Shown here in pieces: positions 33,386 to 53,283 of a stretch of 53,377 nt of DNA (position 1 is the stretch's first letter; each line of letters starts with the position of its first letter). The stretch is taken from positions 1-53,377 of the forward strand of contig CANGLK010000006.1 of assembly GCA_947454735.1 (NCBI GenBank). Direction: 5' to 3'. The position numbers and the translations under genes are program-made. The DNA comes from Candidatus Nanopelagicaceae bacterium. Its GTDB lineage: Bacteria; Actinomycetota; Actinomycetes; Nanopelagicales; Nanopelagicaceae. A model generated the notes under the pieces. It saw only the letters and a program-made list of their open reading frames with translations, searched no databases and was not told the DNA's origin.

Positions 33386-34278
33386 GTCTCGCCAGCTAAC
33401 TTACTTTTATCGAGCTCTGTCGCACCTAGCCAGCCTTCAATCATTCGTCGGGCAACGCTGACGGTAGGTGGGAGTAAGAGTGAACCATCTTCAGCGGCGG
33501 CTTTGAGCTCTTCACGAGAGAACCACTTCACCTCTGTGATCTCTTCACCATCAGGGCGCGCATCATCTGGTGCATCTGTCACAGCTTCAAAGGCAATCAT
33601 GATGCTTGCCGGAAATGGCCACGGTTGTGAACCAAGATATTTAATCTCTGAAAGTCTTACGCCAGATTCTTCAAAGGCTTCACGTGCAACACAGTGTTCA
33701 AAAGTTTCACCTGGCTCGAGAAATCCTGCAAAAGTTGAGAAGCGACCATCAGGCCAAACCGGTTGATGACCAAGAAGGATTCGATCTGCGCGATCTTTAA
33801 TGAGAACGATTACCGCTGGATCGGTTCGTGGATGATGCTGGCTTTCATCCACATCACATTTACGTGCAGCACCCGCTAGATCAACACGAGTGGGCGCGCC
33901 GCACTTTGAACAATGGGGATGTGCATCATGCCAATTAGAGAGAGCAATGGCATGCATTGAAATTTCTAAGTGCAGTGGAGAGAGACCGCCTGCTAATTCA
34001 CGTAGCGTTAAGTAATCCTCAACATCAGATACGACCGCGCCTGACGCCCATGCAAAGTAAGGAGTATCGGTTGCCCGGTCGAATCCGAGGAAGTAGCGCT
34101 CTCCCCCAATTGCCTCTATCGATGGAATAAAGGTGGGGCCATCGACTGTGCTTCGGATCCGGCCTTTGCCGACCTCGATGATCTTGGCTGAGCGCCAGAG
34201 CTCTTCGATTCGAGCGGGATTGCTCCGCAAATCTCCAGCACGATCCATCAAGGAACTCTTCTGTGGAATCGCGCTCAT
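33376..34278 (-). CDS. nudC: NAD(+) diphosphatase NudC
   Basis: 300 aa Nudix hydrolase that cleaves NADH and can remove NAD caps from RNA. Zinc ligands start with CSKC, then C in ARKCDVDESQ; the fourth ligand of the E. coli-type ribbon is not a cysteine, as in many actinobacteria. The Nudix box is GFLEPGETFEHCVAREAFEESGV, and SQPWPFPASIM is the NudC-specific SQPWPFPxS motif. TAACCT (34290-34285), CCACCT and then ATG suggest a leaderless start. It lies upstream of uvrD2; the glutaredoxin-like gene between them in mycobacteria is absent. Confidence 0.95.
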   Translation of the reverse strand: MSAIPQKSSLMDRAGDLRSNPARIEELWRSAKIIEVGKGRIRSTVDGPTFIPSIEAIGGERYFLGFDRATDTPYFAWASGAVVSDVEDYLTLRELAGGLSPLHLEISMHAIALSNWHDAHPHCSKCGAPTRVDLAGAARKCDVDESQHHPRTDPAVIVLIKDRADRILLGHQPVWPDGRFSTFAGFLEPGETFEHCVAREAFEESGVRLSEIKYLGSQPWPFPASIMIAFEAVTDAPDDARPDGEEITEVKWFSREELKAAAEDGSLLLPPTVSVARRMIEGWLGATELDKSKLAGETWR

Positions 34279-34338
34279 AGGTGGAGGTTACTAGCCATTC
34301 AAAGTTCAGAGGCCATGGCGTTGAACTAGCCTTACCCC
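34279..34338. promoter_or_regulatory. 60-bp divergent leaderless promoter region of nudC and the EEP gene
   Basis: Minus: TAACCT at 34290-34285, spacer CCACCT, ATG 34278. Plus: TAGCCT at 34327-34332, spacer TACCCC, ATG 34339. Neither start has a ribosome site. Confidence 0.7.
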
Positions 34339-35133
34339 ATGCGCCTCACATCATGGAATTTCCTGCACGGCCAGAGCCTCAACCCCGCTGAAAAAGCTGA
34401 TGTTGCGGCAGCTGTGGCCCTTTTGGGTAGCGATGTCATGGCCCTCCAAGAGATTGACTATCGACTCCCCCGTTCAATGAATATCAATCAAACCCTTGTC
34501 GTTGCAGATGCAATGGGGGCGAACTGGTGGGGGTTCGCTCCTGCAATTAAGGGCACGCCTGGTGTGAAATGGCGCAAGCTCGATTCTCGCGAGCAGCAAG
34601 TGCTCACACTCTCCGATCTCGATAATCAAGGTGAGTATTACGGAATCTCAATCGTCTCAAAGATTCCAGTGCAGAAGTGGCTAAGGCTAGAGCTCGGCAA
34701 GGCATGGATTGGCCTTCCACTTCTTGTTGCAAATGAGAAAGGAAAGGTTGCGCCTTTCTATGTCAAAGATGAACCTCGCGTTGCACTTGCAGCTGTATTA
34801 GAAAATGGTTGGACCATCATTAATGTCCATCTCTCTTTCGTTCCATTTGTAAATATCTTTCAACTCTTAAAGGTAACTCGCTGGGCGAAGAAGCTAGAGA
34901 AGGAAACTTCCACAAAGGTTGCACTTGTTGGAGATTTCAATTTGCCGTGGGGATTGCCAACGCGCCTTACTCGATGGAGGCGCGCAACTGATGCGCTGAC
35001 ATATCCATCCTGGAAGCCTGCAATCTCATTCGATTACATCCTCTTACGTGGCGGCTTAGATCTGCAATCCGTAGAAGTAGTCGCACCTCAAATGGCGATG
35101 AGCGATCACCGCCCCATATCGATCGATATCTAG
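34339..35133 (+). CDS. Endonuclease/exonuclease/phosphatase family protein
   Basis: 264 aa. EEP-fold metal-dependent phosphodiesterase: SWNFLHG at the N-terminus, MALQEID (the metal-binding Glu), INVHLSF, GDFNLP and C-terminal MSDHRPI, the catalytic Asp-His pair. Leaderless (TAGCCT, 6 nt, ATG). It is convergent with adnB and overlaps its end by 4 nt. The substrate (nucleic acid, phospholipid or sugar phosphate) is not known. Confidence 0.9.
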   Translation: MRLTSWNFLHGQSLNPAEKADVAAAVALLGSDVMALQEIDYRLPRSMNINQTLVVADAMGANWWGFAPAIKGTPGVKWRKLDSREQQVLTLSDLDNQGEYYGISIVSKIPVQKWLRLELGKAWIGLPLLVANEKGKVAPFYVKDEPRVALAAVLENGWTIINVHLSFVPFVNIFQLLKVTRWAKKLEKETSTKVALVGDFNLPWGLPTRLTRWRRATDALTYPSWKPAISFDYILLRGGLDLQSVEVVAPQMAMSDHRPISIDI

Positions 35134-50830: not shown

Positions 50831-51784
50831 TTACTTTCCAGCAGCCTTCATCTCTGCGCGAAGGTTCTGTGGAAGCGCAAAGGTCAGCGATTCTTTCTTC
50901 GCCTCGACCTCTTGTTGATCATGGAAGCCATGCATCTCAAGCCACTTCAATAGATCACGAACCAAAATCTCTGGCACTGATGCGCCACTTGTAACTCCCA
51001 CGGTCTCAACGCCTTCAAGCCATTCATCCTTAGCCTCTGATGCGTAATCAACGAGGAATGCAGCCTTTGCGCCATATTCAAGCGCTACTTCAACAAGGCG
51101 AACTGAGTTGGAGGAGTTTGTTGATCCAACGACAAGTACCAAATCTGATTGCGCAGCAATGCTTCGGATTGCCTCTTGGCGGTTCTGTGTTGCATAACAG
51201 ATGTCATCTGATGGAGGAGATGCAATCTCTGGAAAACGCTCTTTAAGAATTGCAACTGATTCAAGAGTCTCATCAACGCTGAGCGTTGTCTGGCTAAGCC
51301 AAATCAAATTCTTTCCAGGTGTTGGCTGCACATTGCGCGCACCATCAAGGCCATCGACAACACGAACTTGGCCAGGTGCTTCACCAGCTGTTCCTTCAAC
51401 CTCTTCGTGGCCTTCGTGACCGATCAAGAGAATCTCTGTATCGGCATCTGCAAAGCGCTTTACTTCGTGGTGAACCTTTGTGACGAGCGGACATGTGGCA
51501 TCGATTGTCTTGAGGTTACGTCGTTCAGCCTCTGCATGAACCGCAGGTGAAACACCATGAGCAGAGAAGACAACAGTCTTTCCCTCAGGAACTTCATCGG
51601 TCTCGTTAACGAAGATGACACCACGCTGTTCGAGAGTTGCAACTACATGCTTATTATGAACAATCTCTTTACGGACGTAGAGAGGAGCGCCATAGAGCTC
51701 TAGCGCCTTTTCAACTGTGACGATAGCGCGATCAACGCCAGCACAATATCCACGCGGCGCAGCGATCAAAACTCTCTTGGTCAT
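50831..51784 (-). CDS. ispH: 4-hydroxy-3-methylbut-2-enyl diphosphate reductase IspH
   Basis: 317 aa, last step of the MEP isoprenoid pathway, with a [4Fe-4S] cluster held by three cysteines: [21 protein letters not shown] and [22 protein letters not shown] and [11 protein letters not shown] complete the family motifs. TAGACT (51796-51791), GCACCC, ATG (leaderless). It shares a 25-bp divergent gap with xseA. Confidence 0.97.
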
Positions 51785-51809
51785 GGGTGCAGTCTATTAG
51801 CCTTGCCCC
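51785..51809. promoter_or_regulatory. 25-bp gap with back-to-back -10 boxes for ispH and xseA
   Basis: Minus: TAGACT (51796-51791), spacer GCACCC, ATG 51784. Plus: TAGCCT (51798-51803), spacer TGCCCC, ATG 51810. The boxes are one base apart (51797). The -35 regions must lie inside the opposite genes, and simultaneous initiation seems impossible. Confidence 0.82.
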
Positions 51810-53006
51810 ATGTTCGAAACTTCAAGTGACTCCCCTGCGCCAGTACGCGTGGTCACTGAAGCGATAAAAGAGTATGTGGACCGCCTCGGACCAATCTGGA
51901 TTGAGGGCGAGATTGCAGAGCTCAACGAACGCAGCGGAATGATGGCCTTTATGCGCCTTCGCGATACGAGCGCAGATATGAGCCTTTCAGTGATGTGTCA
52001 TAAGTCGGTCATCGCGGCGGTGAAGCCGTTGCCCGCTAATGCCCGCGTTGTTATCTATGCCAAGCCATCTTGGTATACAAAATCTGGAACGCTCTCGATG
52101 TCAGCGAAAGAGATTCGCCAAGTGGGAGTCGGAGAATTATTGGCGCGCCTTGAGGCGCTGAAATCTATACTTGCTGAAGAAGGTCTCTTCTCTATCGATA
52201 GAAAAGTTCCGCTTCCAGTTCTGCCACGCAAGGTCGGTTTAATCTGCGGACGCAACACTGATGCCGAGAAAGATGTCGTTGAGAATGCACGACGTCGTTG
52301 GCCGGCGGTTGAATTTGAGATTCGTGAAGTAACGGTTCAGGGAGCTGCAGCAGTTGTCGAAGTCTCCGCAGCGTTGCGGGAACTTGAAGCCAATAGCGAA
52401 GTTGATGTCATCATCATTACCCGCGGCGGTGGTTCCTTTGAAGACTTACTTCCATTTAGCGATGAATCATTGGTGCGACTTGCAGCTCAATGCGAAACTC
52501 CTATCGTCAGCGCGATTGGCCACGAGAAGGATTCGCCACTTCTCGATCTCGTTGCAGATTACCGAGCCTCAACTCCGACAGATGCTGCAAAGCGAGTTGT
52601 CCCAGATATTGCCGAAGAGTCGAGCAATATTCAGAAACTTCGTGATCGCGCATATCGCGCACTGGCCGCTCGCCTTGAACATGAAGGAAACTTCATCGCA
52701 CAATTGAGATCGCGCCCTGTGATGAAAGATCCTGGGGCATTTCTTACTATCTTGAGTGAAGAGCTCATTGACCTACGCCAACGTTCGACGAGAAGTTTTA
52801 CCGCAACTATTGAGGCAGAACGGAAAGAGTTGAAGGCGATTACCGCCCACCTTCGTTCACTCTCTCCTCAATCAACTCTCGACCGTGGCTATTCAGTGGT
52901 GCGTGATGCCAAGGGCGAGGTCATTCGTGACCCGAAAGCGTTGAAATCAGGGGATCTCCTTGCGATTAAGGTCGCCAAGGGCGAGACCAGCGCCACAGTC
53001 GTTTAA
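51810..53006 (+). CDS. xseA: Exodeoxyribonuclease VII large subunit
   Basis: 398 aa. OB-fold N-terminal domain (to about 100; IWIEGEIAELNER), then the catalytic region with VGLICGRNTDAEKDV and ITRGGGSFEDLLPFSDESLVRL and SAIGHEKDSPLLDLVADYRASTPT. The end has LDRGYSVVRDAKG. Degrades single-stranded DNA with XseB. Leaderless start. Confidence 0.96.
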   Translation: MFETSSDSPAPVRVVTEAIKEYVDRLGPIWIEGEIAELNERSGMMAFMRLRDTSADMSLSVMCHKSVIAAVKPLPANARVVIYAKPSWYTKSGTLSMSAKEIRQVGVGELLARLEALKSILAEEGLFSIDRKVPLPVLPRKVGLICGRNTDAEKDVVENARRRWPAVEFEIREVTVQGAAAVVEVSAALRELEANSEVDVIIITRGGGSFEDLLPFSDESLVRLAAQCETPIVSAIGHEKDSPLLDLVADYRASTPTDAAKRVVPDIAEESSNIQKLRDRAYRALAARLEHEGNFIAQLRSRPVMKDPGAFLTILSEELIDLRQRSTRSFTATIEAERKELKAITAHLRSLSPQSTLDRGYSVVRDAKGEVIRDPKALKSGDLLAIKVAKGETSATVV

Positions 53007-53070: not shown

Positions 53071-53283
53071 ATGGATGAAAAGAAGACTTCTGCCGCGAAA
53101 CTAAGTTACGAAGCAGCCCGTGATGAACTCGCTGAAATTGTGGAATCCCTTGAAGATGGAAGCGCCTCTCTCGAAGAGTCGCTCAAGCTCTGGGAGCGCG
53201 GCGAAGAGCTAGCGAAGATCTGCCAAGAGTGGCTCGATGGCGCAAAGGAAAAACTCACTTCAGTAAAGAAGGAGGCTAAGTAA
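53071..53283 (+). CDS. xseB: Exodeoxyribonuclease VII small subunit
   Basis: 70 aa helical partner of XseA. Family motif SYEAARDELAEIVESLEDGSASLEESLKLWERGEEL is complete. It follows xseA by 64 bp and the next gene starts directly after its stop. Confidence 0.94.
   Translation: MDEKKTSAAKLSYEAARDELAEIVESLEDGSASLEESLKLWERGEELAKICQEWLDGAKEKLTSVKKEAK

Follow-up and report, generated by a model that had tools for sequence, protein, structure and literature searches.

Probable abutting divergent promoters with predicted leaderless products between ispH and xseA in Nanopelagicaceae

The genes ispH and xseA of a Candidatus Nanopelagicaceae bacterium are separated by a gap of only 25 bp (GGGTGCAGTCTATTAGCCTTGCCCC, 51785-51809), which very probably constitutes a double core promoter of the housekeeping sigma factor, giving rise to two leaderless mRNAs. 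The gap is part of contig CANGLK010000006.1 (assembly GCA_947454735.1), of which positions 1 to 53,377 were analyzed and are referred to here as the window. The identities of ispH, xseA, and xseB are firm, as judged from profile matches. Each strand of the gap carries one -10 box, whereby six bases lie between the box and its ATG on both sides. The presumed transcript starts coincide with the ATGs at 51784 (ispH, minus strand) and 51810 (xseA, plus strand) and would thus be 26 bp apart. The features of the locus are as follows:

50831..51784, minus strand: ispH (lytB), 4-hydroxy-3-methylbut-2-enyl diphosphate reductase (NF002189 with 540.6 bits, TIGR00216, Pfam LYTB)
51770..51778: ispH codons 5-3 (AACTCTCTT on the plus strand), presumed buried -35 region of the xseA promoter (-32 to -40)
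51796-51791, minus strand: ispH -10 box TAGACT, final base at -7 of the ATG, present in 48/48 distinct same-genus sequences
51797..51797: lone base between the boxes, T, replaced by A in two sequences of the genus
51798-51803, plus strand: xseA -10 box TAGCCT, final base at -7 of the ATG (TAGGCT in the majority of relatives)
51810..53006, plus strand: xseA, exodeoxyribonuclease VII large subunit (TIGR00237, 381.7 bits)
51813..51827: xseA codons 2-6 (TTC GAA ACT TCA AGT), presumed buried -35 region of the ispH promoter (-29 to -43)
53071..53283, plus strand: xseB, exodeoxyribonuclease VII small subunit, downstream of xseA (TIGR01280, NF002139)

The frequency of leaderless promoters was assessed in a sample of 453 kb, consisting of the window and 400 kb of one complete relative. 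Here, 56 of 255 genes (22%) have a TANNNT motif that begins at -12 of the first ATG and 13 genes have one at -13, compared to about 2.4 of the 255 genes at other offsets, which corresponds to a background of approximately 0.9% per offset. Since TANNNT is enriched at -12 relative to the other offsets, leaderless promoters seem to be routine in these bacteria, and the leaderless consensus of the genus is TAGNCT without a clear -35. The counts agree with published surveys: In Actinobacteria, more than 20% of the genes are leaderless, as recognized by TA-like signals about 12 bp before the start codon (PMC3160421), and a survey of M. tuberculosis describes TANNNT promoters that lack a -35 motif (PMC3898074). 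In the literature collection searched, no paper joins Planktophila and leaderless. At the ispH/xseA locus, TANNNT starts about 12 bp before the start codon of both genes in all of the 48 same-genus sequences, and a Shine-Dalgarno sequence is present in 0/48 on either side. The leaderless starts of ispH and xseA are predicted from the sequence. Considering the low TANNNT background and the retention of the pair throughout the genus, the two boxes do not occur together by chance.

At smpB (window position 1350), a leaderless box occurs in just 2 of 30 same-genus species, the window's included (L154-L183), and several other same-genus smpB genes have GGAGGTGA- or GGTGA-like Shine-Dalgarno sequences, which suggests that the initiation mode was switched within one genus. 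The leaderless box of prfB, TATCCT, is preceded by CTCGC or a similar sequence in many species (L094-L114), and the conservation upstream of this box exceeds the average of leaderless genes.

The relatives of the window that bear a name in a public collection are Candidatus Planktophila and other Nanopelagicales, and the same-genus alignment comprised 48 distinct sequences. The gap measures 25 bp in 32 and 26 bp in 16 of them; 41 share the 13-mer AGTCTATTAGGCT, made up of both boxes and the lone base, and the remaining seven show three other forms. Column identity averages 0.99 over the 13-mer and 0.60-0.68 over the two spacers, while it is 0.82 over the xseA coding sequence, where no 13-column window exceeds 0.93. 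Judging from this near-frozen 13-mer, the layout of 13-mer and gap length is under selection. An order-wide sweep led to 15 genera, all from one family, and sixty loci were examined, including one from the window's own genus. One-base spacing with a gap of 25 or 26 bp was detected in 29 sequences from seven further genera, the majority of the sequences of these genera, which makes eight genera together with the window's own. The box pairs of the seven genera are TAGACT/TAGGAT, TAGGAT/TAGCAT, TAGGCT/TAGAGT, TAGTAT/TAGAGT, TAGGAT/TAGGAT, and TAGGAT/TAGAAT. Box drift across the family is thus limited to the N positions of TANNNT, whereby TA and the last T are constant in both boxes, as is the inner CTA[A/T]TAG across the one-base-spaced family sequences. 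Since only the N positions vary, this pattern argues for two -10 elements rather than for an operator. In the remaining family members the boxes are spaced by 8, 10, 11, 14, 17, or more than 40 bases, and most relatives with such other spacings retain one leaderless box per gene. For several of the sixty family loci, no xseA was detected next to ispH. Overall, the box positions, the family-wide conservation, and the lack of a Shine-Dalgarno sequence bear out the initial annotation, in which the 25-bp gap was described as two divergent leaderless promoters with -10 boxes one base apart.

A generic sigma-70 scan (TTGACA/TATAAT-type) yielded no promoter in the gap at the consensus threshold, which is expected since TANNNT promoters lack a -35. 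Neither of the two promoters has a canonical -35 element (TTGACA-like, 16-18 bp upstream of the -10); the hexamer at 17-bp spacing is TTTCGA for ispH, and TCTTGG is located at about that position for xseA. The suggestion that the -35 elements are buried in coding sequence was correct as to the place, namely the synonymously frozen first codons of the opposite gene, but not as to the sequence, as there is no TTGACA. For xseA codons 2-6 and ispH codons 3-5 (AAG AGA GTT), the top synonymous codon is used in 93-100% of the same-genus sequences, compared to a mean of 0.52 and a maximum of 0.76 at 50 other four- or sixfold degenerate xseA sites. Given this freezing of synonymous sites in the opposite gene, it is likely that a functional upstream element is hidden in the coding sequence. 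It could also be that the frozen codons play a role in leaderless translation of the ispH and xseA mRNAs. A general codon bias of leaderless genes was rejected as the cause in view of the leaderless controls uvrD and prfB, whose codons are not frozen; smpB is a poor control in this respect, since its box is present in so few species. Within the 453 kb, the frozen xseA block does not occur a second time when up to two mismatches are allowed.

The xseA block GAAACTTCA was scored in 71 sequences: 38 of the 48 with one-base spacing have it, versus 0 of the 23 with other spacing. On the tree, eight changes of spacing are required, and the block moves in the same direction in about 2.7 of 4 supported independent contrasts and never in the opposite one, whereby the four well-supported contrasts (sign test, p ~0.25) are too few for significance. 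Shared ancestry confounds this association of codon freezing with spacing. Members of g39 and g46 have the one-base spacing but not the xseA block.

For the proposed double core promoter, RNA polymerase would melt the DNA at the TANNNT box of the respective strand and begin transcription at, or at most one base from, the A of the start codon, so that two leaderless mRNAs would be made. The DNA 20-30 bp past each box, which would be contacted by the rest of the polymerase, lies within the opening codons of the gene on the other side, where it is retained at the DNA level. An initiating polymerase spans roughly -40/-50 to +20. Both initiation complexes would accordingly occupy the same ~60 bp, and thus only one complex is expected to be bound at once. 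In this respect the earlier claim that one polymerase must exclude the other is sound by geometry, provided that the starts lie 26 bp apart. The most likely outcome would be two modest housekeeping promoters that fire alternately, rather than a pathway switch. We infer the start sites, the identity of the sigma factor, the mutual exclusion, and the absence of regulatory coupling.

The close spacing might alternatively be a product of genome streamlining, by which spare DNA was deleted until two independent promoters touched, with the spacing itself being unselected. This explanation agrees with the double core promoter on the boxes and disagrees on the spacing being selected. The genome is small (~1.4 Mb) and contains numerous short divergent gaps, as would be expected under streamlining. 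However, the one-base spacing persists across eight genera. When the pattern ATG-6-box-box-6-ATG was counted in 26 same-genus genomes with the reversed pattern as a control, box separations of -2, 0, +1, and +2 gave 79, 0, 20, and 0 matches versus 10, 0, 1, and 0 in the controls, so that separations 0 and +2 were not found at all in these genomes. The higher background at -2 is due to this pattern fixing fewer letters, and the preference for +1 rests on few independent cases, since 16 of its 20 matches are the ispH/xseA locus and four lie elsewhere. On this evidence, streamlining as the sole cause of the spacing is rather unlikely, although it deserves consideration. It might also be that the near-palindrome AGTCTATTAGGCT is an operator for a regulator common to both genes, whereby its symmetry would reflect a dimeric protein and not two -10 boxes. 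The almost invariant 13-mer of the genus would fit such an operator, as would the occurrence of exact AGCCTAATAGACT exactly twice per genome, at the ispH/xseA and uvrD loci, in five complete or nearly complete relatives; moreover, four species preserve the half AGCCTA (ACCCTA in one case) at the uvrD locus without a divergent start codon alongside. In the other genera, however, the N positions of TANNNT are free to change while the spacing and the start-codon distances are fixed, which fits -10 boxes, and each half of the 13-mer corresponds to the genus leaderless consensus. One-mismatch copies of the 13-mer are no commoner than those of the reversed control, which argues against a wider regulon. 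We therefore regard the operator as improbable.

A wider regulon of the 13-mer was also rejected on account of just two exact copies per genome. A CrtR-like isoprenoid-responsive operator was dismissed, since the CrtR site of C. glutamicum requires TTAA, which is absent from the gap, and since the frozen xseA block occurs as a single copy in the 453 kb. The actinobacterial SOS (LexA) box has the form GAAC-N4-GTTC; by eye, the half GAAC alone is present at the xseA start, and an SOS box was set aside as well. Palindromes resembling MarR-type sites were observed in other divergent gaps (GTAGTTGAAATTTCAACTAC, L082 16480-16543, and AGTTGAAAGTTCAACA, L081 6865-6928), with a MarR-like gene at the second of these loci.

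Finally, competition between the two promoters could act as a regulatory switch, in which a strong demand on one pathway lowers the other, as had been proposed by linking isoprenoid synthesis and DNA repair. Simultaneous loading is physically implausible with starts 26 bp apart, and E. coli bidirectional promoters show repression of one direction when the other is strongly activated (PMC12825309). Against this, basal activity was insufficient for competition at the five E. coli bidirectional promoters tested in the same study, and neither an activator site nor a link between the ispH and xseA pathways was found at the locus. In addition, the promoters have moved apart in several genera, and identical layouts join unrelated gene pairs. 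In E. coli, competition appeared only upon strong activation of one direction, of which the sequence gives no sign here, and the proposed pathway link is thus unsupported: the neighborhood is old and usually more widely spaced, the genus has many short divergent gaps, and the E. coli promoters do not compete at basal activity. A switch of this kind appears highly improbable.

The double core promoter resembles the bidirectional promoters described by Warman, Grainger and colleagues (PMC12825309, PMC10268837), in which a near-symmetric -10 sequence serves divergent transcription, polymerases are unable to bind both ways simultaneously, and the products are most often mRNAs. The pseudo-symmetric -10 for both strands is likewise found here (AGTCTA T TAGCCT; AGTCTA T TAGGCT in most relatives). 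However, the published promoters share -10 bases and have starts 7-25 bp apart (favored 10, 18, and 23), whereas the ispH/xseA boxes only abut, with presumed starts at 26 bp. The locus therefore departs twice from the published definition (PMC10268837), in distance and in the lack of shared bases, and is placed beside rather than inside this class. Furthermore, both ispH/xseA products are presumed to be leaderless mRNAs, whereas the E. coli promoters use -35 hexamers. Boxes with separation -2, which are common in the 26 genomes, share one TA and have starts 23 bp apart, and thus match the 23-bp bidirectional class (PMC12825309) in leaderless form. The juxtaposed divergent leaderless promoters of M. 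tuberculosis (PMC3898074) are similar in that they have TANNNT, no -35 consensus, and leaderless mRNAs, and in that divergent juxtaposition is common; in the available portion of that paper, a fixed one-base box spacing or frozen opposite codons were not found. The divergent ispH-xseA pair is an old actinobacterial neighborhood: 73 of 80 loci, mostly from Actinobacteria, have xseA upstream of ispH in divergent orientation. Outside Nanopelagicales-like loci, however, the two starts are usually farther apart (tens to more than 1000 bp), often with extra sequence in between.

Overall, it may be, as we tentatively suggest, that Nanopelagicaceae have a distinct selected class of bidirectional promoters with abutting -10 boxes and starts 26 bp apart, which are interlocked with the initial codons of both genes as mutual upstream promoter regions, so that geometry and N-terminal coding sequence co-evolve. 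This would extend bidirectional promoters to a geometry slightly beyond that published so far, in freshwater bacteria that are abundant but little studied. The series of spacings (one base, or 8, 10, 11, 14, and more) provides natural material for testing the minimum distance between two polymerase sites and the preservation of coding sequence as promoter DNA. As a caution, frozen N-terminal codons in compact genomes may stem from the promoter of a neighboring gene.

Further observations concern other divergent gene pairs. A PIG-L/mca-like gene and uvrD form a second pair with the 13-mer AGCCTAATAGACT (L032 1493-1523, G000:C29), which most of 30 species carry with somewhat longer spacers (L124-L153). 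In the window, the endonuclease-like/nudC pair is separated by a gap of 60 bp (34278-34339), whereas a relative has 25 bp between the two GTG starts, with AGACTAGTAACCT and boxes spaced by one base (L079 1798-1823). AGCCTAATAGGCT is located at -7 of a cobalamin adenosyltransferase-like gene, whose divergent murA-like neighbor carries a separate TAGAAT at -7 (L033 1494-1552, G000:C53).
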